Positions 777-18,094 of a stretch of 64,000 nucleotides of DNA are shown here, one piece after another. Made by a program: the position numbers and the translations under genes. Origin of the DNA: Candidatus Heimdallarchaeota archaeon. GTDB taxonomy: Archaea > Asgardarchaeota > Heimdallarchaeia > Heimdallarchaeales > Kariarchaeaceae. The notes beneath the pieces were generated by a model, which had not been told where the DNA came from, did not search any database, and saw nothing but the letters and a program-made list of their open reading frames with translations. The stretch is taken from NCBI GenBank assembly GCA_030149205.1, contig JASBSB010000003.1, positions 62,001 to 126,000 of the forward strand, read 5' to 3'. Position 1 is the stretch's first letter. Each line of letters begins with the position of its first letter.

Positions 777-813
777 TAAATATTCATCTAAATCATCTTG
801 AAATTATTACTAG

Positions 814-2130
814 TTATACAGGAATTGGGAATGATAATGTTGCGGCAATTACAGCAAGAACCAGCATTATTTTACTGTGAGGTGGAAGCTCACTTATATG
901 ATTTAATACATCAAGGCTTCCATATCTCCCTGTGAAAAAGAAAAGAAGCAGCGCTAAATATACAAGACCATTCATTACCAGTAATAAAATTACGAGAAGT
1001 GAAAGTAGCATGGACTTCTGCTCACCTAAGCTTATTCTAAATAGGGTTCCACCATTGAACTGGTAAATAGGAAGAAACTGTATACCTGTTAAATAAATAA
1101 ACCCATATGCAATTAATGAGTAAGGAGAGAGCAGATAATTCGATGTGTATGACCCCGAAAAATTTAGTAATCCTAAATATTTTCCTAAATTAGTAAACAA
1201 TACCAACACAAGAGGTTCAAAGTTTCCTGAAACAAGAATTGACCTTACACCAAAAAGATGGGCTGCCTGGGCATCTAGAGTATTAGTAGAGATAAGTAGA
1301 AAGAAAGCAACAAGAGAAATCAACCAAACAATGAAGTTACCATAAAAGGAAACGTTGAATAGAGTCCCTTTATTGATGATCTTTTTCTTTTCTAATAGCA
1401 AATTTCCTAAGGTTCCTAATTCAAAGTAAGGTATAATTGGGATAGGAACAGATCTAACTGATTCTTCATTATTTATCTGAGAATTAAAGAGTTGAATTTT
1501 TGAACGTATTAAAACTATAGAAATTACTATCAAAGAAAAGATGCCTGCTTGAATGAGCATGTCCGCAGAGGATGGTAAAGTAAAAAGGCTTAGATAACCA
1601 GTTTCTAAGTGATTGATTGAGTTATTATATCGAAGAACCTCGAAATAACCAGACATTAATATTGTTAAGATGGTAAAAACCCAAAATAATCTATTCCATT
1701 TTTGAAATGTGTTCGAATTAGACCCTGAAGATCTATAGCTATAAACAAGGAGAAAGGAGTCTTTCCTCCTTCCAATTGGATATGCATTCGGGGTTAACCC
1801 AGCGTTAATTGATCGACATTCAGTAACTAGATCAGTAAATGTTTTATCAAGATTAGTTGGAACCTTAACTTCAAAAATTGGAGGAGAGATGGCTTTTGTA
1901 TTAATTATTGGGAACTTTTCCTCTGTGAGGTCTATAAGATCATTTAGTTTAAGGTCAAATTTTTTTCCTTTTGGACCGTCAAAGCTTACCACTACATTTT
2001 CTGGATTTAATTTTAACTTCTCTTCTCTAGATTGTGCGGTCGGATCCAAAACTTGCTCGCCACAATGTATACATTTGCCAGCGGGTGTTTTTTCTCCACA
2101 GGACCAGCAAACGAAGGTTTTATTTGACAC
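814..2130 (-). CDS. Zinc-ribbon M50 (site-2 protease)-like membrane protein, probably inactive
   Basis: The protein has 438 residues. It begins with a zinc ribbon (CWSCG at about 9-13 and CIHCG at about 20-24), then a soluble part of about 110 residues, then six or more membrane segments. The stretch around FELGTLGNLL, followed by KGTLFNVSFYGNFI, matches the GTLGA...R.ALFDIGIAGP pattern of M50/EGY-type intramembrane proteases. QFNGGTLF sits where those enzymes have the DGG metal-ligand motif. The HExxH zinc motif expected before GTLG is missing (IRSKIQLF is there instead) and the Asp of DGG is Asn. I infer a non-catalytic relative that may bind membrane proteins. It lies between a signal peptidase gene and another membrane protein gene on the same strand, so a membrane-protein handling role is plausible. 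The family call rests on motif spacing only. Confidence 0.55.
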   Translation of the reverse strand: MSNKTFVCWSCGEKTPAGKCIHCGEQVLDPTAQSREEKLKLNPENVVVSFDGPKGKKFDLKLNDLIDLTEEKFPIINTKAISPPIFEVKVPTNLDKTFTDLVTECRSINAGLTPNAYPIGRRKDSFLLVYSYRSSGSNSNTFQKWNRLFWVFTILTILMSGYFEVLRYNNSINHLETGYLSLFTLPSSADMLIQAGIFSLIVISIVLIRSKIQLFNSQINNEESVRSVPIPIIPYFELGTLGNLLLEKKKIINKGTLFNVSFYGNFIVWLISLVAFFLLISTNTLDAQAAHLFGVRSILVSGNFEPLVLVLFTNLGKYLGLLNFSGSYTSNYLLSPYSLIAYGFIYLTGIQFLPIYQFNGGTLFRISLGEQKSMLLSLLVILLLVMNGLVYLALLLFFFTGRYGSLDVLNHISELPPHSKIMLVLAVIAATLSFPIPV

Positions 2131-2193
2131 TAAGAAAAAGTAGGAACCTAGTTTATTAAGTTCTACACATGAGCATGGAAAAGTAATAGAATC

Positions 2194-3084
2194 TTAATAT
2201 CTCTTTTCTTTTGCAATGAGACCTCTGACAAATCTAAGTGACATTGCTACTAACAATAGCACGAAAGTATTTGCCCAGTTGTATAAAATGAATTGATTTG
2301 AATTTTGAATTGAAGCGTATATGTACATCCCTCCACTACTAAGCCAGAATATACCCTCGAATATGCCTAAGACATAATAATCATTGATCACTCTTTTTGA
2401 GACACTTGACAGGACAATTAGTAGACCCATAACTGAAATTCCAGCACCAAGGTACAAATCTGAGGTTATATACAGCCATTCTATATCATAAACCGTCATA
2501 TAGCCGAAATAATATGCAATAAATGAATAACTTAACACCGCGGAAATCCCCAAAAATCCAAAGGATTCAAGGACAATAAAGATATTTTTTCCTCGAAGAA
2601 GTAGTATTGATATGAAAAGAAATACACCTCCGCCTAAAAGTGATCCACCTATCAGTATTGGAGAGTACTGATATATTATTGTATTCCATAACTCAGAAAA
2701 AGTGTTAACGTGTATCTGGGCCAGATAATTCTCTAAAACAAAAAATGGGTCAAAAGAACCTACAGCATGTAAAATCAAATTATAAAACCCACCCATGAAG
2801 AGTGAAGAACCGATCAACATAATAATTCGTTTAACCCAATTTGCAGTTACAATAGGGGTATCTTTCAGGTGACTAATTTGAGAAACAGAATCTAGGTCTA
2901 CTCCTGCTATTTGCTCATACTGTTTATGTAATTTAGTGTAATATTCTTCGAGATCATTTCTCTTCTTAAGCAGATCTGCATTGGTTTTATCCTTTGCCAA
3001 TTTTTCATTTACGTTGTGTATCTCTCTACTGGTTGCTTCAATTTCTAAACGTAAATTAGCTCTAATTCTTTTTTGACTGTCCAC
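2194..3084 (-). CDS. Coiled-coil membrane protein, unknown function
   Basis: The 296 residues divide into a charged, heptad-like N-terminal coiled coil (about residues 1-62, rich in Lys, Glu, Asp and Leu) and a C-terminal part with about six hydrophobic helices (starting near residue 85). I do not recognise a family. The ATG start is followed directly by the coiled coil, with no signal peptide. It is the first gene of a minus-strand group that continues, after 63 nt, into the M50-like protein and then the signal peptidase. A membrane anchor with a cytoplasmic coiled coil could serve as a scaffold, but nothing in the sequence gives a reaction. Confidence 0.6.
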   Translation of the reverse strand: MDSQKRIRANLRLEIEATSREIHNVNEKLAKDKTNADLLKKRNDLEEYYTKLHKQYEQIAGVDLDSVSQISHLKDTPIVTANWVKRIIMLIGSSLFMGGFYNLILHAVGSFDPFFVLENYLAQIHVNTFSELWNTIIYQYSPILIGGSLLGGGVFLFISILLLRGKNIFIVLESFGFLGISAVLSYSFIAYYFGYMTVYDIEWLYITSDLYLGAGISVMGLLIVLSSVSKRVINDYYVLGIFEGIFWLSSGGMYIYASIQNSNQFILYNWANTFVLLLVAMSLRFVRGLIAKEKRY

Positions 3085-3190
3085 ATCTGAGGTTAATAAT
3101 TATATTTTATTATCTTTCTCTTTCATCTTTAATAATTCGTAAAAAGTAATTTGTTAATTTATACTCCATAGTTCACTAAATCAAAGTTCG

Positions 3191-3200
3191 CATTTTTAAA
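3191..3200 (+). promoter_or_regulatory. TATA-like box for the gene at 3223
   Basis: The run CATTTTTAAA is centred about 27 nt before the TTG at 3223. This spacing is what an archaeal TATA box needs to place transcription start at the first codon, so it supports a leaderless mRNA with a TTG start. Confidence 0.4.
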
Positions 3201-3222
3201 GGTCATCACCATATTTTTACTA

Positions 3223-3672
3223 TTGAAATATGCACAAGTTACAGAGGAGAAAATACGCGAGCTGTTGACGTCTGAAACCTTTAATCCTAGTATTCAGACT
3301 GAATTAGAATACATAATTGGACTTAGAAGGAAGTATTCACCTTTAAGTGATATTCTATCAATTTTAAAACGAGAGGGAAAGAGTCTCACTTTTATAACTT
3401 TTAAAAAATCTGGGTTCCAGTTTCTCCCTCTCCGGAATGTGATAAGAGTTTTACTTAAACTTAGTAGCGTTGAATCCTCTCATCTTTACAAAAAAATTGA
3501 AATTTATGGTATGGAAATTGGTTGTGACTATTTTAAAGGAAAGTGTTGTATATACTTAGAAGAATCTTGTATAAAAATTAATTACTTGTGGAGATGGACA
3601 GGCTTTGAAGGAGATATCCATTATGACAAATTTATAAATTTTGAGACAATTGAAATATCGTTAGAAAATTAA
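3223..3672 (+). CDS. Unknown protein, 149 aa
   Basis: I do not recognise this protein. It starts with TTG, supported by a TATA-like box about 27 nt upstream and no nearby ATG. The N-terminal 60 residues look helical and basic (TEEKIRELL, YIIGLRRKY, ILSILKREGKS), a layout compatible with a small winged-helix or other nucleic-acid-binding fold. The rest is mixed strand and helix with three Cys near residues 101-108 and 116. It converges on the HerA-type ATPase gene with a 4-nt overlap of the 3' ends. Confidence 0.5.
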   Translation: MKYAQVTEEKIRELLTSETFNPSIQTELEYIIGLRRKYSPLSDILSILKREGKSLTFITFKKSGFQFLPLRNVIRVLLKLSSVESSHLYKKIEIYGMEIGCDYFKGKCCIYLEESCIKINYLWRWTGFEGDIHYDKFINFETIEISLEN

Positions 3673-5504
3673 CTAGACAATAATTGTTGTAATTGTAGTA
3701 TCTTCATTTCAACCGTTTTTTCTGCGTGAATTGGGCTTAAACTTTCTGGGTTATAACTAAATACCCATGATCTAAGTTCCCGATGGTAAGAAAGATACTC
3801 ACCAATGTCTAAGTTAGGGATGAACTTTTTAATTTGGTCAGTGAACAGTGTATCTAAATCTGAATTGGTTGTAAAGGATTTTCTAAGTCTAAAAACTAAA
3901 ATTTCAGAGTTACTCACAACCCAAGGATCAAACTCAGGTGCTTGAGAAATTGCCATCAAAAATAATCCAAACTTTCTACCTTCAGAGGCTAAATTTCGTA
4001 TCCATTTGTCATTAGCAAGATTCTGAGCCTCCTCTGCAACTATTAGTATCCTGTCACTTATTTTTTCCTGAATTGCCATATTTAGAATTCTCTTTAATAT
4101 GGTCGAAACTATTGTTGTTACAATCCAGGGTTCATCATAAGTTGGCCAAAAAACTATTGTTTCAGCAGAGCTGGTTGGTAATATAACATCTTCTTCTTTG
4201 TCAAGAAGACTCTCAATGGTATCGACAACAAATCTTGAAATAGTAGGTCTTGTTTGTTCTTCTATAGCCTGAAGCTTTTGTGCGAGGTCATCGGGCGATG
4301 CCCCTTCCTGAGAAAATACAGTTTGTTGGGTTCGAATATGCTCCTGAGCAGTTGTAAAAGTATCTCCTATCTCATAGACGGGATAATAACTGGTTACCTC
4401 TGGTTTTTGTTCGCCACCGATTTGAATTATTTGATCAGCGATATCTGCATATTCCAAGTGGTGATCAAAAATAAATACAGTCGTATCTTGAACACGTTTG
4501 TTTTCTTTTATAATTTGTTTGACCAGTGTTGTCTTTCCAACCCCTGTCTGACCTACGATAGACAAATGAGGAGATCCTGCGGGGTTTGCACCCAATATAG
4601 GTACTTCACCAACTGCAACAGGGATATTGAGTTTCATCTTGTTGACATATTTTGTTAGCAAGTCCTCTAATCGGTCTAAATATGGAGATTCAATCAAGGT
4701 ATGTGGAATAATTTTTGATTTTACATGACTTATAGTGTATGAATCAACATTTTCGTTTGAAAATCCACGAATCAGAGCTTCTAAAGCCATGAGTCTTGAG
4801 TCAAGATATTCAAAATCCTCATGAGCATATTTTTTTAGTACCCTTAGTAATTCCAATCCCTCTGTTAAAAAGGAAGTCTCAGAATTATACCTTTCAACCA
4901 TTAATCCAAGCAATTTCAAGAAAGCATTATAAATTTGTAAGGCTATATCTTCTGGATTCCCCTTTCTTTTGAAGAAAAACCCACTTGATTCAGATTGAAA
5001 CTTTTGAATCTGTTCAATGAGTTCTTCTATTAGCTCCTCTTTTTTGTCTTTAGCGTATTTAAGATACCTAAGACAGTAATCGTCTAAACCCTCGAGTAAA
5101 AGGTCAACTATGATATTAATAATCTGTTCAATCCAATCAATCCCCTGAGCCATCTCAAGAGCACCAACTCTAGATTTTACCGCATCACTCAGGTCTTCAT
5201 TCAGTGTTTCTAAAATTTTGGCTTTAAAATGGTAGGCGTAAAGGATAAAGAAAGGGCCGAGTTTGTCAAAATACGGTGCCTCAAGATTTCCTCTCTCAAT
5301 CACCACTTGTAATATTTTTTCAAGACGTGACAAAAGAAGGTGAGACTCTTTCTTTTTACCGACTCCTTCAAAGTATAAAATTGCCTTTTCATATTCTCTG
5401 TATCCACTTAAGTAATCTGTAGTAGAACCTGAGCTAATGGCTTGTTTAAGGGTTTCTTCGGCATCTTTGGCATAGTCCATATAAGATTGAATTGCTTGTT
5501 CCAC
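3669..5504 (-). CDS. HerA/FtsK-superfamily ATPase with helical N-terminal half
   Basis: This 611-residue protein joins an alpha-helical N-terminal half (about 1-290, TPR-like in look) to a HerA/DUF87-type P-loop ATPase. Walker A is GQTGVGKTT near residue 318, in the VGQTGVGKT form typical of HerA and conjugation ATPases. IFDHHLEY follows as the first acidic loop. Walker B is ILIVAEEAQN, and SEGRKFGLFLMAISQAP follows as the sensor and arginine-finger region. HerA proteins form hexameric rings that move or remodel DNA, and classical ones pair with the nuclease NurA. No NurA, Mre11 or Rad50 gene is adjacent, so this is probably a specialised HerA relative whose helical half supplies the partner contact. 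It is transcribed alone. Confidence 0.75.
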   Translation of the reverse strand: MEQAIQSYMDYAKDAEETLKQAISSGSTTDYLSGYREYEKAILYFEGVGKKKESHLLLSRLEKILQVVIERGNLEAPYFDKLGPFFILYAYHFKAKILETLNEDLSDAVKSRVGALEMAQGIDWIEQIINIIVDLLLEGLDDYCLRYLKYAKDKKEELIEELIEQIQKFQSESSGFFFKRKGNPEDIALQIYNAFLKLLGLMVERYNSETSFLTEGLELLRVLKKYAHEDFEYLDSRLMALEALIRGFSNENVDSYTISHVKSKIIPHTLIESPYLDRLEDLLTKYVNKMKLNIPVAVGEVPILGANPAGSPHLSIVGQTGVGKTTLVKQIIKENKRVQDTTVFIFDHHLEYADIADQIIQIGGEQKPEVTSYYPVYEIGDTFTTAQEHIRTQQTVFSQEGASPDDLAQKLQAIEEQTRPTISRFVVDTIESLLDKEEDVILPTSSAETIVFWPTYDEPWIVTTIVSTILKRILNMAIQEKISDRILIVAEEAQNLANDKWIRNLASEGRKFGLFLMAISQAPEFDPWVVSNSEILVFRLRKSFTTNSDLDTLFTDQIKKFIPNLDIGEYLSYHRELRSWVFSYNPESLSPIHAEKTVEMKILQLQQLLSS

Positions 5505-5709: not shown

Positions 5710-6282
5710 ATGATACAACTCTTGGACAAGGAGAGTATTGGTGATGAGCTAGTTGAAAGAATTGTGATTAGACTTACTGATCAGGGATATGATGAGGTTT
5801 TTCAGGTTTTAAGCAAATTGTTTCCAAAAGCCAAAGCAATGAGACTTCGTTCAATGTCTGAAGACCTTTCTGAGAAAAGAGACAACAGACTAATAGAATT
5901 CAACAATTTGATAGAAATGGAACCATTGGATCTGGAACTATTTAATACCCTCTCCAGTGCGGATCAAGATCCACAATTGATTTTCAACAGGGGGTCATGG
6001 GATCCCACAAAGTTTGAGCTCAAATTGGTTTGTGCGAGAACCCCATTAAAGGAATTTTTTGATGAGTGTAAAAGTATAACCTGTGAAAATTGTATAGTTA
6101 GCAGACTAGAAGCGTTTTCTCCTTGGAAAATCACATTGAACAGGGTTGAGGATCGAAGAGTTGATTTATGTAACAACTGTGGAATAATCCTTAGCAAGAA
6201 GGACCAAATTTTCTTAAGGAATGAGAGACTAACCTACGTGTGTCATAATTGTGGTCACAAAGGGTGGAATAAAGCTAAATAA
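5710..6282 (+). CDS. Unknown Cys-rich (zinc ribbon) protein, 190 aa
   Basis: I do not recognise the family. The N-terminal 100 residues are helical. The C-terminal part has paired cysteines: CKSITCENC near 117-125, CNNCG near 156-160 and CHNCGHKG near 179-186. The last two pairs have the spacing of a zinc ribbon. A TATA-like box 27 nt upstream supports the ATG. The 3' end overlaps the end of the topoisomerase VI subunit A gene by 8 nt on the opposite strand. A nucleic-acid or protein adaptor role is possible, but this is inference only. Confidence 0.6.
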   Translation: MIQLLDKESIGDELVERIVIRLTDQGYDEVFQVLSKLFPKAKAMRLRSMSEDLSEKRDNRLIEFNNLIEMEPLDLELFNTLSSADQDPQLIFNRGSWDPTKFELKLVCARTPLKEFFDECKSITCENCIVSRLEAFSPWKITLNRVEDRRVDLCNNCGIILSKKDQIFLRNERLTYVCHNCGHKGWNKAK

Positions 6283-7687
6283 AATTACTGGTTTCTAATT
6301 TATCTGGTAAATAGTGATTTGTTATGAACTGAGGGTCTCTGGCATTTAAAGCCTGTATTTCTGCTTTAACGCCCAAAGACTGCAAAGTTTCCAGCTGTTT
6401 TCGCCACTTTGGTTTCCTTCGAACAAATTCTTCTTCCAACATTAATTTAATTTTGTTCTCATCGTTTTTAGTCAGCTTAATATGAGTTGAGGATGGAATA
6501 TGAAACCCAGAATCATCTTGCAGATCGGAAGGTAACAACCCCAACCATTTCATATTTGGAACAGCTAAGTTTGAGGCTTCAAAAGATAATGATTTAGACC
6601 CAACAGTGTATACTCTCATAATTTCTATTCCATAAACATCAGCATCCATGATTGCTAAAATTGGTAATTTCAATTCCTCATCAATCTTCTTAAGAAACAT
6701 TCTCGTTGCCATATCAGGTTGTCCTTTTGCTGTGACAATGATTGATGGGATATAATCATAGAATTGATCCTCTGCCAATCTATTAAAGACTGCATCTTTT
6801 TCAATAACCAGAACCATTTCTGCGTCACTTTGAATGTTCGAGATTTCTTCTACCATTGGGGCAATGGATTTCCCGGTTCCGATTTTAGTACAATCAATAA
6901 AATCTCCTTTTTCTTCAAATTGAAGCTTTCCAATCACCACACCTTTTGATGAGGCACTAACATTCAGGGAAGGCCTTGTAACTTGGAGTAATGCGCTAAG
7001 ATCTTCTATAAGGCTGTCTGAAGTGCTCTGCCCTTCGAATGCGTTTACATCTTGGTAGAATATATCTCTCTTTGTTGCATGTATATCTCTACTTAAAATT
7101 TCATCTAAGATAACCATCAACCTTGAAAGTTGATAAAAAGATTTTACTGAAGACAAGCTTCTAAATGCACGTTCAATTTTCTGTCGACCTAAAAGCACAT
7201 ATTCGCTCTCTTCATCATATCCTATGTTATCTCCAGAACGTGATGGAATGGAAAACGATGCTTCAGACGGATTCTTAAGAGAATCAAGAACAAATTGTTT
7301 TACAATCTGAGTGAGTCGACTCCTCGTCTCCTCTTCCTCAGTTTGATCAACTTTAAGAATACCGTAAGGCATGATCATTTCATCAGAATATTTACTCTGA
7401 AGGTCTCTAAAGTAGCTCTGGAACTTACTTAAACTTACATCTCTTTTTACATCTATTTCAAGTTTATCTGCCTTAAGGTCGTAGTCACTCAATTTCTTCT
7501 TAGGATCCAAGAAATACCATTTTTTCTTAACACGGATAAATAGTACAAATTTGCTGTTAGGAAGGTTGAACTCTTTTTTGACTTCCTTTTTTAGATCTGC
7601 CATTTCCCAAGTTGTATCTAAATTCAATATGGAATGCTCAACTGGTAGTGTTGTAGAATTTCGGATGGGGATCTCTCTTTTGACCAT
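6275..7687 (-). CDS. top6A: DNA topoisomerase VI subunit A, Spo11/plant-Top6A-like, with ubiquitin-like N-terminal extension
   Basis: Subunit A makes the double-strand cut of topoisomerase VI. Residues about 14-82 form an extension that resembles a ubiquitin or FERM-F0 beta-grasp domain: KKLSDYDLKADKLEIDVK can be laid over the ubiquitin segment around LSDYNI. The winged-helix (CAP-like) domain carries TKRDIFYQD, with Tyr211 at the catalytic position. The Toprim domain has IEKDA (Glu296) and DADVYGIEI (Asp348 and Asp350), all conserved. The segments KGQPDMATRMFLKK, GSKSLSFEASNLAVP and WLGLLPSDL read much closer to what I recall of human SPO11 and plant Top6A than to standard archaeal Top6A (YGWYIYSVIK-type). 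The gene directly abuts subunit B (TAA then ATG), with a GGAGG ribosome site inside the end of B. Function is sure; the eukaryote-like affinity needs a tree. Confidence 0.95.
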   Translation of the reverse strand: MVKREIPIRNSTTLPVEHSILNLDTTWEMADLKKEVKKEFNLPNSKFVLFIRVKKKWYFLDPKKKLSDYDLKADKLEIDVKRDVSLSKFQSYFRDLQSKYSDEMIMPYGILKVDQTEEEETRSRLTQIVKQFVLDSLKNPSEASFSIPSRSGDNIGYDEESEYVLLGRQKIERAFRSLSSVKSFYQLSRLMVILDEILSRDIHATKRDIFYQDVNAFEGQSTSDSLIEDLSALLQVTRPSLNVSASSKGVVIGKLQFEEKGDFIDCTKIGTGKSIAPMVEEISNIQSDAEMVLVIEKDAVFNRLAEDQFYDYIPSIIVTAKGQPDMATRMFLKKIDEELKLPILAIMDADVYGIEIMRVYTVGSKSLSFEASNLAVPNMKWLGLLPSDLQDDSGFHIPSSTHIKLTKNDENKIKLMLEEEFVRRKPKWRKQLETLQSLGVKAEIQALNARDPQFITNHYLPDKLETSNFI

Positions 7688-10600
7688 TTATTTTCCTCCT
7701 TTGGATTTATTCTTTTTGCCCGGCTTTGTGGTTGGTTTACTTGTTTTCTTTTTCTCCTTCTCCAATTTCAATCTAAAATTAGATATCTCTTTGTTAGTTA
7801 AATTTGAAAATTGTTTAATATCTACATTTGGTGCAAATAAGAAATCTCCAAAAGATTTGATTTTTGATTTCTTAAGCTTCTTCTTTGCTTCAGATGGCAA
7901 TTTAGCTTCTTCTATATCGGTAGCCAGTAACCTTTGTAAGCTTAGTATACCTTCTGTGAATGGACTATTCTTGGGTAATTTAAAATCATTTATGTACACC
8001 TGAATGACGGATTTGATACCCTGCTTGTTTAATTCCTCAATATCCATTGCCCTAATTTTGCGAACCACGTTTAAGGGAGTTATGTCCTCCTTCCTGGCTC
8101 TGTTAATATCAGCTCGAGAGATTTCTGCAGTAACTGATTCAAATTCCTCTAAATTGTTTACCTTAAAATCTTTGAACAATGCGTCAGGAGGAGAAATCAG
8201 AATGTCATAGAGTGTCTTAATTTTCTTTCTTAGCAAGGCTTTAATTGATTTCAACCCTAGAGACCTGAGCGTTTGGGATTCCCAAAGGTAAATGTCTTTC
8301 AGTTTTTCTGATTGACTGAATGTGTTTTCTGTGATCCCTTGTAACCCACTAAAGTCAGCTGCTAAGACATTTGTAGTTAATTGAATCCAACTTGTAAAAT
8401 ATGAGTTTTTCAAACTATCAAAGGAGTTTTGAGGGAAATATCCTATATAGAACAGATTTTTTGTATTAACTAATTTATTTAGATCTAAGTTCTTCAATAA
8501 TGGAAAGTCATTGCTATCGTGTATGACCTTTGATAATATTACATCGGAGACATGGGTAATCCCCTGTTGTACCAATTTTTGAATATCATCAAGCTCTAGT
8601 TCAGGAATTGATAGAATTGAACTTCGTAATGTTTCTCTTGTAAGGTTTAGGTTTTCTGAAATTGAGTTATTTAAGTAATAATTATACATAAACTCCTCAA
8701 CAGTCTTAATACTTGAAGCATTCAATTCACTCTTTATTTGTTTGGGAACAGTTAAGGAGCTAAAGTCATGAAGGTCTGTCAAATAGTCATTTATATCCCA
8801 TTCGTTTACCAAATTTTCAAACATTGAACCCTTCAGATTATCTTCAGAGATATCTCCAAGAGTATCTCCTGTAAACAATTTCAAAATTTCAACTCGTTGC
8901 AGTTGTGGTAATTCCCAATAAAATTTTGCTGCCCAGAGTTTCGAGTTCAAAAATGATTTTAGATGACTAACTGGTTTAAATGTATTAGATAGAGATTTTG
9001 GGATATTAGGGTAGATTGATAATATCTTGAAATCAAAAAGACTCAATGAGAATAATTTTAACTCTGATTTAAGGAGATTAGACACGAATTTGTTATTATT
9101 CGTGGCAAACTCAACCTTAAACTCACCTCTTTTGTCGCTAAACGATTTGGCAGAAACACCTAAAGTATTAATCATTTCTTCCTCACTTTCAGTGTGAAGT
9201 TGCCAATATGTTGTGATACCAATCTCTCTAAGGTCTTTACTCCACTTTTCAGGGAAATTTATTATTTTGTTTAACGGGAGATGTAATAAACTTAGGATAT
9301 CACAAGTTTTCAACTTATCAGATTTTTGGAGTCTTTGTAAGGTTTCTTCATTAATCAATTCATTCATGGTTTCAACTTTATTGCTTTTTAAAAATTCAAC
9401 AAGGTTATGCTCTTGTATTGTATCTTCGACAAGCATTGAGCGTTGTACTATTATTGGGGTTGTAATGGGATCATGCTTGCTAAAATATTTATCTAAGAAT
9501 ACGCTAACCTTCACATTTGAAGTTGGTTTTTGAGAAAATACATCGTTATTAAGTATTAAATCAGCACTCTGACTTAGTTGAGACTTTATAGAATTGATTC
9601 TTTCTTCTTCAATCCCCATTTCGATCAACTGGTTTGAATTAGTCTCAAGGAGCTGTGTGAACAAGAAGATACCATTAGAATTGAGAATTTTTTCTTCTTG
9701 TGTTCGAATTTCAGGTAGGATATTTAATCTTGGGAGGTTACTCAAAATTTCATCTAAATCTAGGGGAGAAAGCGTAGTTGAAACTTCCTTTGATTGTAAA
9801 CCTTGTAGAAATTCTATGATTGTCCCTTCTGGTTCTATTTTGGCCTTTTCTAATAATTTTCTAATTTTCTGTGAATAGTTTAAAAGTAATGCAGGTGAAT
9901 TTAACAGGTCTTTGTATTGTTTTAAGATATTTTGATCTGGTTTACTCAACACTTGAGGTATCTCAGAACCAAGATCAATTAGACTATAAATATTTAAAGC
10001 CGTTAGCCGTTCTTTTCCTTTATCACTGATACTCTGGATGTTATTTATCTGAAGATTATCAATTGAAGTTAGTTTTTCAATCTCAACAAAGTTTATGCTT
10101 TTGATTTTTTCTTTTAATTCCTCTGTTGATATGTTTAAGACCTCAGTGATCGCTTTAGGAGAGGACACTAAAAGGTCAAATATGGAAGATATATTCAATT
10201 CGTCCAACTTATCCTGATCAAACAGTTTCAACAATTTTACACTTGTAAAGAAAATTCTTTGTTTAGAACCTAATTTTCCAGAACCAACTTTTTCCATCAA
10301 ATTTGACAATGGTTGAGATAAATCAATGAAAGATTTCATTGATTTTGGCAGATTTAAGTCGGAAACCTTAAGCAAACTTTGAACCTTTCTATGATTGTGA
10401 ATTATTAAATTAACCCTATCTTGATAATTTGATAATCTTTCAGAGAAATCAACTAAAGATTTTGGAAACATCAGAAAGTCTACTATTTCAAATATTGATT
10501 TTTTGAGTAATGCCTTTATTTCATTTAAGGTTAAAATATCTCTAAGTGTAGTATCTAGGATATGTGTAACCAAAAGAAAATGAATATTTTTTAATTCGAA

Positions 10601-13600
10601 GTCAATATTTACCAAGGGATGACTTCTTCTAATAAACAATTTAGGAAGTGTGTGGAGCGGATCTTCTAAAAATTCCAATGACTCCTCAGAGTACAAATCA
10701 TCATAATTTGAAATTTCTTCGCTATCAACATTAATAACAAAACTCAAGGCTATATCTTGCAGTTGTTTTATTCTCTTTTTAGATATTGAAGTGTTAGTAA
10801 ATAGCTCTGCCGGAGCTAACAGCAGGTCATTTATTGAGATGATCCCTGATTTCCATAATTCCCAAAGTTCTGTTTCTTCAATTGAAGAGAGCCCAGAAAT
10901 CAAATTGTATGAATTTTTGATGATTCTTTGAATAGGAAATGTGGGTTGTGAATTTGTTTTCATTATACTCATCGATCTTTCTATGGAATAGTTCCAAAGG
11001 TGGTGAAATCCAGTTACATGAGTTGCTAGCTGAGTCGAAATTTCATCAATACTGTTTTCCGGAAGATTCAATTCATCATGAACCACTAAATTTGATTGCA
11101 GTTCATGCCAAAATATATTGAACTCATCTTTTGACATTAAATCTTTTAGTTCTGATAAATAATGGATTAGTTCGTCTAACCATAATATTGGGATAGGAAC
11201 AGACAAACTGCGATTGTTGATAGACAACATGGTTAAAGGTATTTTCAAACCTTCACGAACGGCTTTTAAATTATTTTGCTTAATTCCTAAATAGGTATCT
11301 AACCTGTGAGGAGAGGATAGAATTGTTTGTACATTGACCTTCTCAGATTCAACCCTTCTAAAAAGGCTAAGAGAGACAGTTCTGATGAACTCTAAAGGTA
11401 ATTCTAGTTCAGTTTGAATTGTTGGATTTTTAAGAAATGTATCAACAAAACCTTTGGGTAATAACGGTCTTAGAAATGGGTCAGTAAGAAGTTCAAGTAC
11501 AGTTGAACAAGAATATTTGGTTGTAGCCAGATGAAGTAATGCCCCAGGTAAATCCAATAGAAGTGGTGATTCACACAAGGTTTCGTAAAGTAACTTTCCT
11601 TTTTTAGGTAGATTAGTCTTCCTGGATGGTTTTAAATCAACCCACATCTTAAAATTTTGAAGATTTGTTATTCCGACCGAACTTGGAGTATTTAGCGAAA
11701 TTTCTAAAGGTAACTGATTTTCAAGATATGTTTTCCAACCAACTAACAGGATATCTCTTATAATATCTAATTCATAGTCCATCATCCTAAAGGCCAGAAT
11801 TGATTCGATTATTGTTCTGGCTCCCAGATTTATAGTGTCTTGGAGGTCATTTGCATATCCATGTAAAAATACATTCGAAGAAAACAAAAATAGTTTAAGT
11901 TCTCTAATGTTTGGATTTTGAGTTGTCAGAACTGTGACTGTCTCGTCAAGGAACTTCACATTATCAAATTTTAAACTTGAATCGAAAACAAATTGATCAA
12001 CTGATAACCCTTTTCTTTCTAACAACTCGTTAAGCTCTGTAGTATCAAAATTATCCTTAAGTTCTCTAAAGAATTTTTGAGTCAAACCAGAGATTAAAGA
12101 CAGCTCCTTAGGGTCATTGAGGATCGCACCTTCAACAGTGGTAATACCCGCATTATAGAGGGACCTAAATTGTTCAGGGGTGAGATTTAGAATAGTTATA
12201 GGTGTTGTACCAGTTTTAACCAGTTCAATTAATGCACCTTTTTGTTTAAGCAATGACTGTATTATTGAGATAGTACCCTCTTCTGTGTTATCATAAAGTA
12301 ATACAAGGTCTGCAACCGTTAATTCAGATAGGTCATCTGATATCTCTTGATCCAGGACATTCACAAATGGAGTATTTTTTAACTCTAAACTGAGAAAGGA
12401 TCGAATTCTATAGAGTACCTCATGATTTAACGCAGGAGAGTTTTCTTTCCACCTTTCTAGTAATGTTCCATCAATTTCTTCATTTGACCCTGCAATTGCA
12501 GGTATCTTAGACATTGCAATTAATGGTTTAAGGTCAATGAATTTCTTCGTAAGTAATGTTAGTAATGCATCAATTTCGGGTGTGGGACTTGGGAGATCTT
12601 CATTTGATACAAACAACAAATCAACCAAATTATTTACATGAAACTCGTGTAATAACGATAGATCACCCTCACTAATAGTTTGGAAGACTTCCAAAGGTAA
12701 GTTTAAGACTTCTTGGACAGAGTTAATTATATCTAACAAATATCCTTCACCAAGAAAGTTAGAAGTGTTTATTTGATAGTACAGCTCTTGTAAGGTGTCT
12801 ATCTGACTAATTTCAAAGATTGTAGCCTTTTCTATGGTCTTTAATTCTGTTCTGTTGAATACATTTATGTCCTTTAAAGGTATTCCATTTTCAGATTCCT
12901 TCTGGGTGACTGATTCTATTGATACTAAATCTTTGATACCTCTCACATCTTTTTCTGATAATGTAAGAGTCTTTGCTAGTTTCTTGTTTGATGTCTCAAA
13001 AAAGTCTAAGATTGTATGAATTCCATTTGTAATTAGCTTCTGGGTTTCAAAATAAGTTAGACCAGGAATAAAATACACAGATTTATAAAATTGCCCCACC
13101 AATTCTTCGAATTCTAAAACGTGTTTTAGATTCTCATACCGCTCTGCCGGGAGCCCAGTCTTCTGTTCAAGTATTGGATCACCTGTTAGTAGAAAATCAA
13201 TAATAGTATTGACTCCATTTGCATTTAAGAGTGAAACTACATCCTCTCCTAAATCGTTTTCAACAAAATTAATTGGTAACCTAAGGATTGATTTTATTGC
13301 CTTAATTGCTTCCCAAGGGATTAAATTTGAGTCCCAAGACTCTTCAAATGATGAAAAATAAAGGTCTTCAACTGTGATATAATTCATTGAATTCAGGTGA
13401 GAAATATGTGATGGCCTGAATAGGTTGAGATTTTCAAGCTCAATTCCAACCTCTTGTAGGAATGCAGTGGTCTGTCTTTCTCGAGTTTTCTCCTCAGTCC
13501 AATCCAAGATCTTTGAGATTACTTCACTGGGTTGGGTGAGGAAATCAAAAACTCTGGTTAATTTTGCTAAAGAAAGAGACTTTAATTCGTCAGAAGTTAA

Positions 13601-16600
13601 TGTAACATATCGGAATTTTTTGGTTGTCACCGTTTCTTCCCCACTATCCACTCCCTCAGAATCTACTGGATCACCATCGTTACTATTCTCAGAATTTTCT
13701 GGAATTAAATCATTATCGAGTTCAGATTCTTCTCTTGGAATTTTGGTTGTTACCTCATATTCCTCTTTCCAAGATAAAAGTACAGAGGGAGACCGTAAGA
13801 GACTCTTCATATGATTAATTATGCTCCAGCTTAATCCAACTACCTCGAAGTTTTTAGCATTTGTTAGATAATATAATGTCTCTATGGTGTCATAACCACT
13901 ATCAATGAGACTATCAATCTCGGAATTACTAAAATGAGATATACCCTCATAATCAAAGGTAAAAATGGGTGAGTACTTCTTCCCTTCCAATTTGACTAAT
14001 GGGGTTCCAAAGTTCCTAAAAGTAGACTTGGATAATTTTTCATTTATGTTTTTCAGTGATTGTCCTAGCACTTTGGAAATTTTTGTAGCTGATGTTAAAA
14101 AGAGCTGGTAGACAGTCTTGATATGATGATTTTGAAGTAAATCAACCTCAACTGTGCTGAATTCACTTAAATGAATCAAAGATTTGGATAAATTCTCTTT
14201 GAGGTTAAAAACACGTATCCCAGAAAGAGTTGGTTCTATTAGTCCCTCAGGAAAGTTATTTTGTTTGAGGTTTAGATAAAGTTCTTCAATTAGGCCAGAT
14301 CCTTTCTTGTTTGAAACTAGTTTTGTTAACTTCGGAATAGAAGATGACATAAAATCAAATAAAAGTACAACACCACCATCTTCTAAATTTTTCAGGGCAG
14401 ATTTTAAGCTTTTTTCCTCTGATTTCGACACTTTCAGATTATCAACTAAGACACCAAGAGGTGAAAAAAGAGTATGGTTCAGTGTTTTATGATCATATAT
14501 ATTACCGTTTGTTAATGAATTTGGCAACTCGTCATTCCAAAGAGTTGTAATTAATTGATTTAAACTTTTAAAGCCGAGTTTCTCAAGAGCAATGATATCT
14601 TCTTTTGAGATAACATTTGTGAAATCATTGTAATCAGTTTGTTTGTTATTGACTTTATTGAGAGAAGAAAGTGAAATTCCGTCCAGGATTAAATCAAACC
14701 ACTCCCCACTAAGATTTGTAATAATTTCTAATTCGTCGGTATCCCAGATCAATAGTTTCCCTACTGTATTAATACCCGCGTCTAACAAGATTGGTAAATG
14801 TTGAATTAACTCTTCGGAGACTGTGTTTATTGGCAACAACATATTAGAATAAAGCTTCTCAAGTTTTTTTACATCTTTTTCATCTTTTGCATTTCCAATA
14901 AAATAATCAAAATTGAAATAAAACTCCTCCAGAGTTGAGACTCCAATTTTATTGAGAAGTTTTATCTCAGAGCTTTTTAACCCTTTAAACACAGTTTTGA
15001 ATGACTTTGCCCTTCTAACATGGTCTCTGATTTCACTTGGGAATTTATCAATTGGTAAGGCTAAAAATTCAGAGAGAGAGAGTAGATCATGTTTGATCAA
15101 ATAGCTTTCCAAATCTTGGTTTATGATTTTTAGCTCATAAAGGCTTTTAACATCATTTTGGCTTACTAGTTGGTCGATAATTTTTGCTTTGGTTGAGTTA
15201 AATAAGGCAATTGTTAATTTAGAATTTGCGTTTAATTTTGCACAATAATCAAGAGATTGTGTTAATGCTAATTCTTCTAGACTAGAAATACCCTCTTTCT
15301 TAAAGAGAGGCACATATACCATTGTTTCTTCATCAACCTCTTTAAACTTACCTAAGTCTGTCTTGACTTCTTTTAGTTTATCTATAATCCTTGTAAAAAT
15401 AAGTCTTAACAGCTCAGACATTTCTAAAAGAAGTTCGTCAGTTGCGCCTAAAACATCACCTAGCTTTGACAATTTTCTACGTTTAAAGGAGTTTTTTGTG
15501 TATCCGTCGGTCCATTTTTGATTCTGATCAATTCTTAAGTCTTTTAAGTCAGGATTTTTTTCTATAAGCTTTAGTATGCCATTTTTAAAATTGTCAATAA
15601 TTAATTGATTTAAACTATCATAAGTAATGGGGGATGATGGATTGGTAGTTTCAATCAAAAATTCAACATAAGAGGTTATTTTTCTTTTTTTCACTTCAGG
15701 GTATTCTAAAATCTCCTCAACAGTCGGTAAAAAGAAATCTAATTTAATTTTATCTGCTGTTAAACTTTCTGTTATTTCTTCCCTTAACTTAGGGTTAATA
15801 GCTTCAGGGATTGAGGTAGATTTAGAAGTCTTTTCTGGATCTTCTAGATTTATTTCTAAGAATTTCTCAAGTCCCATTAATTCTTCTTTTGAAAGCTGTA
15901 AATCACCAGAGGTGTTATCTCTATTTGTATATTCTAGTATATGTTGAATGATTTCAAGTCTTTTTTCTTCAAATATTTTAGGAAGAAGCCCCTGAATTCT
16001 TAGGAGATATTCATCTGGTGTAACTAGATAATCCCAAACATTTCTAATCCACTTTCTTGGGAGAGCTTTAGAAAGATGTAAGAGATTTAAACTTAAATCA
16101 CGTGAATGAAATCTCTTTTCTATTTCAGGATTAAGAAAAACCTGAGTTACTATGGGTTTAATTTTCTTAAAGTCATCAAATATAACTATAGTTCTTCTCT
16201 TGATCTCATCAATTTGGGATATATCGAGGTTGAGAATTTTCGAAAGTTTTTCGTTTCTTTCGGTCAAAAATTCCTCAACGGTCAAAATTCCAGATTTTTG
16301 TAGATTGTTTATAACATCAACATCACTCCAGATTGGTTCAATCAAAACGTGTTTTGTTTGAGGCTTAGAAAACCTTGCAATTCTGGCTTCACCTGAAGAA
16401 AGAGCTGCAATTACCCTAGATGGTTTTAATCCAGTCTTTGTATTCCAAACCCCTCCTCTTTCCAGTAAATTTATGAGATTTTCAACTGTTTTTGGTGCAT
16501 ACAGTTCAAATCGAGACCTTCTTTGTCTCTCTCTTTGCTTTCTTCGAGATCTACTTAAGAAAGATTTTAATTTTCTACCAAGCTGTAGCAGTGCTAATTT

Positions 16601-18094
16601 TACCTCTTCTGCGATTTCATCCACTTTATCAATATATTCTTTTGACGTTTCTGGGAAAGGGATTTTTGTAGAAACCAAAGATACCGCAATAGCTAGTGGA
16701 TCAGTTTGACGTGTGAGTCCATACTCGTTCCATTTTATGGAATTGACTACCTGAGTTATAACATCATTCCCTGCTCCAAAAATCAATGGAATTCTATTTG
16801 CATATCTATAAATAATTTTATTGTCAACTACTGTTACACCTTTGGAATTAACAGCTGAAGATACTCCTCCTCCGTAACCCAGTGCAGCTTCAATTACAAA
16901 TGGATGTCCTTCATAAGCCCTCGGTGGTCTTGAAACAGCTTCAACAAATACCGGCTCTAACTCTTTTTCTATCCCTTTTCTAAGTCTTGTAGTGCCTAGT
17001 GGAGATAAAGCGTCACCCTTAGGGTCATCAAATTTGAACACTCGATCCCTTTTCCTCTTAATCTCTTTAGATTCTCTAAGTGCCCTTTGAAATCCATCAT
17101 GTACGATTCGTCTTATTTCCTTATCTGTTAATTCTGAGGGAAGTTTCGATGAATCTACTCCAACTTCTTCGAAAAATAATTCTGCTGCTTGTTCAGTTAC
17201 ACCCATAAAATGTGTGACAAGGAAGTCTAAAACATTCTGTCCAGGTTCTGCGCTCACAATTTCTCTGCGGAAGGTTGTGATATCCGCACCCCAAGGGTGT
17301 ACTGGAACCACCTCTGGTGGTTTTGGAAGTTCATCAACAACTCTTTTGAAGAAGAACTCATCATCTAACCCTGCGGTATCGGAGGGTAAGAAAATATGCA
17401 TATCTGCATAAGGTGTAATTATAGCAAGCTGTTTGAAATATTCACGAACGTAATTTTTAGCCTGTCCCCAATTTCCTGTGAATGATACTTTTATATCCGT
17501 CCCGAACTCATCAAAAAATTCCTTGTCTCCCTCTCTGAATTGCTCATCACTGACAATTATAGGTTGGTTCTTTTCTAAATCGATCAGTAGTTTAACCCTA
17601 TATGTTACATCTTCACCAAGAGGTCGAGTCGTAATCTGAATCGGTAAATCCAATGTTGACATTGAGTAGAGAAGAACCATTTTACTACCAAGTCCAAATC
17701 TTCCCCTTGTTTGTTGAGCCCCATATTTTGTCCCTGCGAGAACTGTCCCAAATAGAGTTGGAATCAGTTCCCTTCTTACACCAACACCATTGTCCTTACA
17801 TGATAATTCTAGGAAGTCAAGTTTCTTATTCGACAATTTAGAAATCTCGATCTCCATTAGATCTCCAACTTCTGACAGGCTCATTTTTCTCAGTTGCATA
17901 CTAATTAATGGGGTAATATTACGCTTTTCTGAGGCATCTAACGCATTTTCTACTAACTCTCGAACTGAGGTGAATACAGCTCGCAATGGATTCCCAAAAC
18001 CTGCAATACTCTTGTTATCATTGAAAAAAACAGCAGCACTGGCTGCTCTTGCCTTTGAATCAGACTTTATAGCTTTCTTTTGTTTTGTACTCAT
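7688..18094 (-). CDS. top6B: Giant DNA topoisomerase VI subunit B (3,468 aa) with long HhH-like repeat tail
   Basis: Subunit B is the ATP-driven clamp of topoisomerase VI, normally about 530-670 residues. Here residues 1 to about 545 are a full Top6B. The GHKL ATPase has RELVENALDAS (Glu46, Asn50), DNGVG (101-105) and TRGRFGLGSKM (about 129-139). An H2TH-like segment lies at about 290-340, and the transducer has STKIPF with Lys477. The forms DNKSIAGF and GRFGLGSKM resemble plant Top6B more than standard archaeal Top6B. About 2,900 more residues follow in one open frame. They contain around 20 divergent modules of the type L-x3-G-I-x-T-V-x-D-L-L, then about 10 residues, then L-(S/T)-x-E-x-I; anchors include Gly602, 1107, 1627, 1691, 1983, 2417, 3178 and 3359. 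These look like helix-hairpin-helix/SAM-like repeats. An acidic linker (near 1,475) and a Lys-rich tail are also present. GGTGAC before the ATG is a fair ribosome site. Confidence 0.93.
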   Translation of the reverse strand: MSTKQKKAIKSDSKARAASAAVFFNDNKSIAGFGNPLRAVFTSVRELVENALDASEKRNITPLISMQLRKMSLSEVGDLMEIEISKLSNKKLDFLELSCKDNGVGVRRELIPTLFGTVLAGTKYGAQQTRGRFGLGSKMVLLYSMSTLDLPIQITTRPLGEDVTYRVKLLIDLEKNQPIIVSDEQFREGDKEFFDEFGTDIKVSFTGNWGQAKNYVREYFKQLAIITPYADMHIFLPSDTAGLDDEFFFKRVVDELPKPPEVVPVHPWGADITTFRREIVSAEPGQNVLDFLVTHFMGVTEQAAELFFEEVGVDSSKLPSELTDKEIRRIVHDGFQRALRESKEIKRKRDRVFKFDDPKGDALSPLGTTRLRKGIEKELEPVFVEAVSRPPRAYEGHPFVIEAALGYGGGVSSAVNSKGVTVVDNKIIYRYANRIPLIFGAGNDVITQVVNSIKWNEYGLTRQTDPLAIAVSLVSTKIPFPETSKEYIDKVDEIAEEVKLALLQLGRKLKSFLSRSRRKQRERQRRSRFELYAPKTVENLINLLERGGVWNTKTGLKPSRVIAALSSGEARIARFSKPQTKHVLIEPIWSDVDVINNLQKSGILTVEEFLTERNEKLSKILNLDISQIDEIKRRTIVIFDDFKKIKPIVTQVFLNPEIEKRFHSRDLSLNLLHLSKALPRKWIRNVWDYLVTPDEYLLRIQGLLPKIFEEKRLEIIQHILEYTNRDNTSGDLQLSKEELMGLEKFLEINLEDPEKTSKSTSIPEAINPKLREEITESLTADKIKLDFFLPTVEEILEYPEVKKRKITSYVEFLIETTNPSSPITYDSLNQLIIDNFKNGILKLIEKNPDLKDLRIDQNQKWTDGYTKNSFKRRKLSKLGDVLGATDELLLEMSELLRLIFTRIIDKLKEVKTDLGKFKEVDEETMVYVPLFKKEGISSLEELALTQSLDYCAKLNANSKLTIALFNSTKAKIIDQLVSQNDVKSLYELKIINQDLESYLIKHDLLSLSEFLALPIDKFPSEIRDHVRRAKSFKTVFKGLKSSEIKLLNKIGVSTLEEFYFNFDYFIGNAKDEKDVKKLEKLYSNMLLPINTVSEELIQHLPILLDAGINTVGKLLIWDTDELEIITNLSGEWFDLILDGISLSSLNKVNNKQTDYNDFTNVISKEDIIALEKLGFKSLNQLITTLWNDELPNSLTNGNIYDHKTLNHTLFSPLGVLVDNLKVSKSEEKSLKSALKNLEDGGVVLLFDFMSSSIPKLTKLVSNKKGSGLIEELYLNLKQNNFPEGLIEPTLSGIRVFNLKENLSKSLIHLSEFSTVEVDLLQNHHIKTVYQLFLTSATKISKVLGQSLKNINEKLSKSTFRNFGTPLVKLEGKKYSPIFTFDYEGISHFSNSEIDSLIDSGYDTIETLYYLTNAKNFEVVGLSWSIINHMKSLLRSPSVLLSWKEEYEVTTKIPREESELDNDLIPENSENSNDGDPVDSEGVDSGEETVTTKKFRYVTLTSDELKSLSLAKLTRVFDFLTQPSEVISKILDWTEEKTRERQTTAFLQEVGIELENLNLFRPSHISHLNSMNYITVEDLYFSSFEESWDSNLIPWEAIKAIKSILRLPINFVENDLGEDVVSLLNANGVNTIIDFLLTGDPILEQKTGLPAERYENLKHVLEFEELVGQFYKSVYFIPGLTYFETQKLITNGIHTILDFFETSNKKLAKTLTLSEKDVRGIKDLVSIESVTQKESENGIPLKDINVFNRTELKTIEKATIFEISQIDTLQELYYQINTSNFLGEGYLLDIINSVQEVLNLPLEVFQTISEGDLSLLHEFHVNNLVDLLFVSNEDLPSPTPEIDALLTLLTKKFIDLKPLIAMSKIPAIAGSNEEIDGTLLERWKENSPALNHEVLYRIRSFLSLELKNTPFVNVLDQEISDDLSELTVADLVLLYDNTEEGTISIIQSLLKQKGALIELVKTGTTPITILNLTPEQFRSLYNAGITTVEGAILNDPKELSLISGLTQKFFRELKDNFDTTELNELLERKGLSVDQFVFDSSLKFDNVKFLDETVTVLTTQNPNIRELKLFLFSSNVFLHGYANDLQDTINLGARTIIESILAFRMMDYELDIIRDILLVGWKTYLENQLPLEISLNTPSSVGITNLQNFKMWVDLKPSRKTNLPKKGKLLYETLCESPLLLDLPGALLHLATTKYSCSTVLELLTDPFLRPLLPKGFVDTFLKNPTIQTELELPLEFIRTVSLSLFRRVESEKVNVQTILSSPHRLDTYLGIKQNNLKAVREGLKIPLTMLSINNRSLSVPIPILWLDELIHYLSELKDLMSKDEFNIFWHELQSNLVVHDELNLPENSIDEISTQLATHVTGFHHLWNYSIERSMSIMKTNSQPTFPIQRIIKNSYNLISGLSSIEETELWELWKSGIISINDLLLAPAELFTNTSISKKRIKQLQDIALSFVINVDSEEISNYDDLYSEESLEFLEDPLHTLPKLFIRRSHPLVNIDFELKNIHFLLVTHILDTTLRDILTLNEIKALLKKSIFEIVDFLMFPKSLVDFSERLSNYQDRVNLIIHNHRKVQSLLKVSDLNLPKSMKSFIDLSQPLSNLMEKVGSGKLGSKQRIFFTSVKLLKLFDQDKLDELNISSIFDLLVSSPKAITEVLNISTEELKEKIKSINFVEIEKLTSIDNLQINNIQSISDKGKERLTALNIYSLIDLGSEIPQVLSKPDQNILKQYKDLLNSPALLLNYSQKIRKLLEKAKIEPEGTIIEFLQGLQSKEVSTTLSPLDLDEILSNLPRLNILPEIRTQEEKILNSNGIFLFTQLLETNSNQLIEMGIEEERINSIKSQLSQSADLILNNDVFSQKPTSNVKVSVFLDKYFSKHDPITTPIIVQRSMLVEDTIQEHNLVEFLKSNKVETMNELINEETLQRLQKSDKLKTCDILSLLHLPLNKIINFPEKWSKDLREIGITTYWQLHTESEEEMINTLGVSAKSFSDKRGEFKVEFATNNNKFVSNLLKSELKLFSLSLFDFKILSIYPNIPKSLSNTFKPVSHLKSFLNSKLWAAKFYWELPQLQRVEILKLFTGDTLGDISEDNLKGSMFENLVNEWDINDYLTDLHDFSSLTVPKQIKSELNASSIKTVEEFMYNYYLNNSISENLNLTRETLRSSILSIPELELDDIQKLVQQGITHVSDVILSKVIHDSNDFPLLKNLDLNKLVNTKNLFYIGYFPQNSFDSLKNSYFTSWIQLTTNVLAADFSGLQGITENTFSQSEKLKDIYLWESQTLRSLGLKSIKALLRKKIKTLYDILISPPDALFKDFKVNNLEEFESVTAEISRADINRARKEDITPLNVVRKIRAMDIEELNKQGIKSVIQVYINDFKLPKNSPFTEGILSLQRLLATDIEEAKLPSEAKKKLKKSKIKSFGDFLFAPNVDIKQFSNLTNKEISNFRLKLEKEKKKTSKPTTKPGKKNKSKGGK
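7694..7699 (-). promoter_or_regulatory. Ribosome binding site for top6A inside top6B
   Basis: Read on the minus strand, GGAGGA lies 6 nt before the ATG of subunit A, within the last codons of subunit B. It implies translation of A from the shared B-A mRNA. Confidence 0.6.
7750..16330 (-). repeat. Tandem HhH-like protein repeats within top6B
   Basis: Around 20 degenerate repeats of about 40 conserved residues, set 60-150 residues apart, run through the C-terminal five sixths of the giant subunit B. Examples by nucleotide position are GILTVEEFL (near 16265-16291), GINTVGKLL (14756-14776), GVNTIIDFL (13196-13216), GIHTILDFF (12998-13024), GITTVEGAI (12122-12148), GIISINDLL (10820-10846), GITHVSDVI (8537-8563) and KIKSFGDFL (near 7845-7870). 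The repeat is seen in protein, not in DNA, so the expansion is old. The pattern resembles the hairpin of Rad51 N-terminal, RNA polymerase alpha-CTD and DUF4332 domains. Confidence 0.65.

Follow-up and report, generated by a model that had tools for sequence, protein, structure and literature searches.

A giant topoisomerase VI subunit B

The DNA analysed here, called the window, is a stretch of 64,000 nucleotides from a Candidatus Heimdallarchaeota archaeon (contig JASBSB010000003.1, positions 62,001 to 126,000), and our subject is its gene for subunit B of topoisomerase VI (Top6B), which carries a long array of repeats behind the enzyme core. The gene is a single frame of 3,468 codons on the minus strand, as a preliminary description of the locus had stated; it opens with an ATG at 18094, ends with a stop at 7688–7690, and encodes 3,468 residues without an internal stop. 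The first 545 residues had been taken for a complete Top6B, and three comparisons agree on this. The NF003218 model (DNA topoisomerase VI subunit B) matched residues 10–546 (E 4e-132; 441 bits against a cut-off of 274), the PF09239 transducer model matched residues 358–525 (179.5 bits against a cut-off of 24; E 5e-53), and the core aligned with the solved Sulfolobus structure 2zbk_B (E 8e-89). TIGR01052 scored 368.9 bits, slightly below its cut-off of 380.7. The alignment with 2zbk_B showed the ATP-binding boxes RELVENALDA, DNGVGV, and RGRFGLGSK, which we take to be boxes N, G1, and G2, and a STKIP motif common to both proteins, the lysine of which is presumably the functional lysine of the transducer. 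No other Top6B transducer match was present in the 3.3-Mb genome.

The gene for the partner subunit, top6A, starts at the base directly after the top6B stop. Its product contains the catalytic tyrosine region and the Toprim domain, as detected by PF21180, PF04406, and alignment with 2zbk_A. Giant top6B followed directly by top6A, in the same order, was found in 27 of the 29 complete (closed-frame) loci of relatives; the exceptions, L082 and L083, both contain masked stretches. Judged by its sequence, with the GHKL boxes, the transducer, and a Top6A partner all present, the window chain is a true Top6B, for which ATP-dependent double-strand passage is predicted. The array-bearing chain as a whole combines this Top6B with at least 23 modules predicted to be RAD51-N-terminal-like, which would likely serve as a long arm that holds DNA. 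The features are listed in Table 1.

Table 1. Features of the top6B–top6A locus (window coordinates; residues are those of Top6B)
Feature	Residues	Coordinates	Strand	Basis or remark
Giant top6B gene		7688..18094	-	Single open frame, 3,468 codons plus stop
Top6B core (GHKL ATPase, H2TH, transducer), complete	1–545	16460..18094	-	NF003218, PF09239, 2zbk_B alignment
Basic stretch linking transducer to arm, net +11	490–560	16415..16627	-	Charge map
Module array, RAD51-N-terminal/helix-hairpin-helix-like	546–3444	7763..16459	-	23 scored, about 40 estimated
First clear module	591–633	16196..16324	-	Module profile; RAD51D_N Pfam match at 592–620
Strongly conserved island, near part of arm	673–697	16004..16078	-	Mean share of commonest residue 0.74
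Conserved basic island, WTDGYTKNSFKRRK	861–874	15473..15514	-	Alignment, 21 sequences
Acidic loop, predicted disordered	1455–1486	13637..13732	-	AlphaFold2 predicted local distance difference test (pLDDT) <50
Clear module, 45.5 bits	1600–1659	13118..13297	-	Module profile
Clearest module, 46.0 bits	1671–1725	12920..13084	-	Module profile
Clear module, 43.9 bits	1958–2017	12044..12223	-	Module profile
Last module, 36.4 bits	3386–3444	7763..7939	-	Module profile; confidently modelled
Lysine-rich C-terminal tail	3445–3468	7691..7762	-	Sequence, charge map
top6A, 470 codons		6275..7687	-	PF21180, PF04406; Toprim and active-site regions align with 2zbk_A

Modules and predicted fold of the arm

An iterated profile of 61 positions, with the consensus LKSLLSLPISFLPGLSPEEIKKLKKNGITTIIDLLLTPDEELSSILGLSEKEIEEIKKSL, was used to count modules at a threshold of at least 6 bits. 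It recovered 23 copies in the window chain, 37 in the Top6B of Candidatus Heimdallarchaeum endolithica PR6, 25 in L076, and 7 in L084; the controls gave one copy in 20 shuffled window tails and none in 37 Top6B cores. The earlier figure of around 20 modules fairly represents the clear copies. The true number in the window arm is probably near 40, which is an estimate and not a computed value; about 16 modules were recognised by eye in a 1,111-residue model of the arm.

Among Pfam models, the best modules matched PF21794 (RAD51D_N; 60.5 bits against a cut-off of 27.3) and PF03118 (RNA_pol_A_CTD; 26.6 against 23.8), and HHH_5 (PF14520) reached 18 bits on the window arm, below its cut-off of 27. 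A profile of 13 window modules, compared with the PDB by sequence alone, retrieved RAD51D, the C-terminal domain of the RNA polymerase alpha subunit (alpha-CTD), RAD51, and RadA at 1e-4 to 2e-3; the nominal top row, a chain named CAP REPEAT, consisted of five weak stretches. The arm was modelled with AlphaFold2 as two stretches, with residues 1641–2379 outside both, and structural comparison with the PDB gave the RAD51/RadA N-terminal (helix-hairpin-helix-like) fold in each. SAM domains were also among the structural matches, and the PDB title of one match names the RAD51 N-terminal lobe bound to a histone H4 tail. A Foldseek search with the whole first arm model returned no match at E ≤0.001. 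Behind the transducer, the model of residues 546–1366 shows helices and, apart from them, isolated bridges; no beta-sandwich was seen. These models and profiles together predict that the arm modules adopt the RAD51 N-terminal fold in tandem; the repeated fold of helix-hairpin-helix (HhH) or SAM type that had been expected for the array is borne out by the two Pfam matches above cut-off, by the structural matches in both modelled stretches, and by the PDB sequence profile.

Within the WTDGYTKNSFKRRK island, W, D, N, F, R, and R are invariant in the 21 sequences aligned. An acidic disordered loop with a long predicted strand on each side breaks the helical array at residues 1440–1498 (window 13601–13777). 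Outside Top6B, the module profile found no array modules in the window genome at E ≤1e-3; the best such match (E 1.1e-3) lay in a 1,086-residue frame at C2, and next came a 470-residue frame at C4 with three weak stretches.

Distribution of long Top6B chains among relatives

Top6B matches were obtained in 51 of 56 relatives in a first survey and in 215 of the 227 genomes of the phylum. Within the class of the window genome, 53 of 58 genomes had a match, and the longest frame reached at least 1,000 residues in 49 of these 53; within its order, frames of at least 2,000 residues occurred in 26 of the 31 genomes with a match. Arm-bearing relatives, with arms of varying length, are found in nearly all examined genomes of the class. 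The four members of the class below 1,000 residues are G001, where the gene lies on a 3.3-kb contig (L031), G038, where it meets a contig end (L094), G004, where it is split, and G046. In G004 (L033:5134-15807; the same stretch in L074), a core of 570 residues, counted from the start of the locus match, and an array of 3,018 residues occupy two overlapping frames; this break at the core–arm junction may be a sequencing frameshift in a draft genome or a real split.

Chain length was characteristic of several families, which we number f1, f2, and so on. Twelve complete f4 chains measured 4,161–4,292 residues (mean 4,192, standard deviation 35), including the 4,292-residue Top6B encoded on the complete PR6 chromosome, CP084167.1. 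Seven f5 chains had 2,280–2,318 residues (mean 2,311) and five f6 chains 1,111–1,118 (mean 1,114), the f3 chain L056 had 3,569, and complete f1 chains ranged from 2,190 (L073) to 3,496 residues in L058, from a congener of the window organism. Outside the class, three of the four f26 genomes carried frames of 2,286–2,297 residues with the same modules. No modules were found in the parts read of Top6B chains of 978–1,250 residues from f16, f18, and f19 or of a 1,353-residue Top6B frame from f15; the extra length of the f16, f18, and f19 proteins (L103, L105, L113–L123) is therefore something else. Beside the long chain, a second Top6B match of ordinary size (about 500 and 565 residues; L086, L087, L108, and the f26 records) was present in all but one of the nine f6 genomes and in all but one of the four f26 genomes. 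In both f6 loci examined, the second Top6B was adjoined by its own Top6A.

Origin of the arm and selection on it

In a maximum-likelihood tree of 40 Top6B cores, all 20 array-bearing rows fell on one side of a single branch (support 100/98; 100% of 200 bootstrap trees). Family f6 splits first among them in a drawing rooted only at its midpoint. Three rows (W, L067, and L076) held non-core residues, and only columns filled in at least 30% of rows were kept; the positions of four long-branched rows (f15, f23, f26-short, and f29) are unsure.

The window chain and that of the congener L058 are nearly equal in length, with cores 82.5% and tails 36.2% identical. In ten close f4 pairs, the ratio of nonsynonymous to synonymous substitution rates (dN/dS) was 0.114–0.162 for the tail and 0.030–0.088 for the core, with tail-to-core quotients of 1.6 to 4.4. 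Tail values in f5 and f6 pairs were 0.04–0.13 where dS was finite, and the f5 pair L077–L078 had similar values for core and tail (0.112 and 0.103). Because tail dN/dS is low but above the core value, the tail is under purifying selection that is weaker than that on the core. Neutral drift of a read-through tail was rejected on the same ratios. The single group formed by array-bearing Top6Bs and the tail ratios of the ten f4 pairs uphold the proposal that the array is old and kept by selection.

Neighbouring genes

In the window Top6A (6275-7687), about 115 extra N-terminal residues precede the part that matches known Top6A, and Top6A frames of the order are similar in total length (466–501 residues). 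A HerA/FtsK-like ATPase (DUF87) is encoded near top6A at 3669-5504 in the window, and such a gene also adjoins top6A in L056, L058, and L073. A GyrA-type subunit (889-residue frame; G000:C7:153987-155324) is encoded on the same contig, about 28 kb past the end of the window.

Charge distribution and a possible DNA-holding role

We tentatively favour the reading that the long arm keeps topoisomerase VI on DNA and grips mainly at its two ends, while rating it at somewhat below an even chance. It draws on a charge pattern that is local in the order: residues 490–560 are basic (+6 to +15), the middle of the arm is neutral to acidic, and the last 350 residues of complete chains are basic again (net +13 to +67). 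At least 12 lysines occur among the last 60 residues in 15 of the 16 complete chains of the order, the exception being L073, a density reached by only 0.8% of 5,150 overlapping 60-residue segments from arm middles. The lysine-rich tips are mostly also composed of Pro, Ser, Thr, and Ala, and in our estimation they resemble histone H1 tails. Whole tails of the twelve complete f4 chains have a net charge of +3 to +60. The seven f5 chains lack a lysine-rich tip (last 350 residues net −3 to +3), and the five f6 arms start acidic (−19 to −36) and end basic (+22 to +35).

Several observations count against DNA binding by the arm. The window tail is acidic overall (net −72, isoelectric point 5.3), and the five f6 chains have no basic stretch beside the core (−1 to 0). 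A motif scan found no canonical Gly-h-Gly hairpin in the window tail, for which reason we do not class the window modules as canonical HhH motifs; in the modules of 37 chains, only 52% of 887 and 32% of 737 hairpin-glycine positions still hold glycine. A point on the other side is that four canonical Gly-h-Gly hairpins were found in each of the five f6 chains; some f2, f5, and f7 chains had one or two. The proposal that the array tethers the enzyme to DNA is thus retained mainly for the arm ends, with their basic linker and lysine-rich tip, whereas the acidic charge and the missing hairpin glycines leave a DNA-binding HhH array along the whole arm unsupported in the window. The tether idea itself is plausible, if unproven.

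If the arm grips at its ends, an A2B2 enzyme with two B subunits would have two arms, and each arm would hold DNA at two places, close to the core and at the lysine-rich tip. The middle of the arm would act as a spacer that loosely encloses DNA or reaches past it. The enzyme would thereby be held on chromosomal DNA and could meet distant duplexes, which would improve its processivity or its ability to decatenate. Such an arm might have begun as a short, f6-like one (about 570 residues with four canonical DNA-binding hairpins) that was later lengthened by duplication of modules.

Alternative explanations

The alternative that survives best, although we consider it rather unlikely, is a protein-docking scaffold, in which the RAD51-N-terminal/alpha-CTD-like modules bind partner proteins and so recruit topoisomerase VI to the machinery of replication or segregation while hardly touching DNA. 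The acidic middle, the lost hairpin glycines, the SAM domains and the H4-bound RAD51 lobe among the structural matches, and the two conserved islands (residues 673–697 and 861–874) all accord with docking. So does a motif, [KR]Q-x-T-L-x-[DE]-hydrophobic, which lies inside the lysine-rich tip (last 40 residues) of all 12 complete f4 chains (L055, L060–L065, L067–L071) and which, to our eye, resembles a sliding-clamp-binding sequence. The PCNA-binding PIP motif is Q-x-x-h-x-x-aromatic-aromatic; since the f4 motif lacks the aromatic pair, we call it PIP-like only. A search of the last 130 residues did not find it in the window protein, nor in the chains examined from f1, f3, f5, and f6; no partner of the arm is known, and many conserved docking sites are hard to reconcile with the fast divergence of most of the arm.

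That the arm is a spacer or ruler, whose length and flexibility matter while its surface does not and which sets a fixed distance from the enzyme to a tip anchor, seems to us improbable. Length does stay nearly constant within these families as the sequence changes: f4 tails are as little as 36% identical, yet the standard deviation is only 35 in 4,192 residues over the 12 chains, and the seven f5 and five f6 chains are similarly uniform. Folded domains, however, keep their length in any case, and the arm contains conserved islands. Lengths also vary several-fold across families; as the family means differ (1,114, 2,311, and 4,192) and f1 alone spans 2,190 to 3,496 residues, no common distance is conserved.

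We give still less credence to a two-armed chromosome-bridging machine, with about 40–55 modules per arm and a histone-H1-like anchor, that would hold distant chromosome parts during strand passage and take over part of the work of SMC. This proposal leans on SMC being diverged in the order and undetected in the window genome. The Pfam SMC hinge was found in 3 of the 35 genomes of the order, in 1 of 12 f5 genomes, and in all nine f6 genomes. Family f5 nevertheless has a full SMC of 1,202 residues that the hinge model mostly misses; with this protein as query, strong matches (among the best candidates, up to 12 per genome) occurred in all 12 f5, two f7, and nine f6 genomes and in 2 of 35 genomes of the order, namely G032 and G034, which are drafts with 6–8% contamination. 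A diverged SMC-like protein, about 1,000 residues long, was found at E <1e-40 in 21 of 23 f4, three of three f3, and one of one f2 genomes (25 of 27; best candidates, up to 23 per genome), and its PR6 copy, the only one scanned, gave partial SMC matches in NCBIfam. In the eight f1 genomes, each SMC query yielded one weak match (7e-4 in G002; 2e-5 in G005) among the best candidates (up to 12 and up to 23 per genome). No SMC was detected among the best candidates scored in the window genome, only a Rad50-like protein of 942 residues. The idea that SMC was lost where the arm is huge was dropped, given the full SMC of f5 and the diverged SMC-like protein of f2–f4, and the distribution of SMC relative to the arm is only a lead.

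Post-translational cutting, by which one frame would yield an ordinary topoisomerase VI core and a separate array protein, is very improbable: the two overlapping frames of G004 (L033) would fit it, but they may come from a frameshift, the genome being a draft; a single open frame is present in the other complete relatives that were examined, and in 27 of 29 complete loci the array is followed immediately by top6A. Finally, metagenome-assembled genomes are error-prone, but an assembly error joining two genes, or a gene-call artefact, is rejected as virtually impossible, because the same architecture recurs in many independent assemblies and in the complete chromosome CP084167.1, in relatives of equal length at 36% tail identity, with dN/dS well below 1.

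Relation to known systems and significance

Topoisomerase V of Methanopyrus kandleri is a type IC enzyme, and topoisomerase VI is an ATP-driven type IIB enzyme that passes double strands. According to PMC9489208, the tandem (HhH)2 domains of topoisomerase V form a loop that encloses DNA while touching it directly at few points, and they apparently serve as a processivity factor. The likeness lies in a tandem HhH-type array on a topoisomerase, and encirclement of DNA is proposed for the window protein only by analogy. The type IC catalytic domain is absent from the window chain, the catalytic part of which is Top6B; the array is 2,923 residues long (about 3,750 in PR6), has at least 23 modules, and is closer to RAD51 and alpha-CTD than to the topoisomerase V repeats. 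Our best reading, by this analogy, is that the arm would work like that of topoisomerase V on an unrelated catalytic part. The N-terminal domains of RAD51/RadA and RAD51D, the alpha-CTD, and the C-terminal domain of AF1548 share the fold of the single module and its sequence profile; they are established to occur once per chain, whereas the window arm has them in tandem.

Extended Top6B chains have a partial precedent: the section of PMC9348778 on Top6B extensions describes C-terminal extensions that are immunoglobulin-like (Ig-like) in euryarchaeal group II and globular in gyrase-encoding archaea, including Asgard archaea, and makes no mention of chains of thousands of residues. The window chain likewise has its extension behind the transducer in an organism with a GyrA-type match, and this match fits the idea, from the same section, that Top6B gained C-terminal extensions in gyrase-bearing archaea. 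The euryarchaeal extension has about 100 residues and is Ig-like, whereas that of the window is helical and repeated; the helices modelled behind the transducer show no Ig-like domain of the Methanosarcina type. Giant proteins of more than 3,000 residues are listed for Asgard representatives in Extended Data Fig. 7 of PMC8813620, which reports two circular Heimdallarchaeum genomes, including that of Ca. H. endolithica, and whose available passages single out the mobile-element proteins Otus and Ephialtes among the giants. As CP084167.1 of H. endolithica encodes the 4,292-residue homologue, that protein may be one bar of the figure; the word topoisomerase does not occur in the available text of PMC8813620. 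No published description of a giant Top6B was found in literature searches covering titles, abstract starts, and passages, so the initial remark that none was known holds within that literature, with the extended Top6Bs and the Asgard giant list as partial precedents.

The window protein is a genuine topoisomerase VI, and no published counterpart was found for its arm. Topoisomerase VI is regarded as the ancestral type II topoisomerase of archaea and is related to the meiotic SPO11 machinery. That a Top6B with two to eight times the normal size has persisted throughout an Asgard class shows that, in a lineage close to eukaryotes, a type IIB topoisomerase was remodelled around a long arm of repeats. 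Next to topoisomerase V, this would be another case, independent of the first, in which a topoisomerase became joined to an HhH-type array. The f6 form, at about 1,115 residues, is small enough for expression, and the finding makes it testable whether an arm can convert a strand-passing enzyme into a chromosome-holding one.
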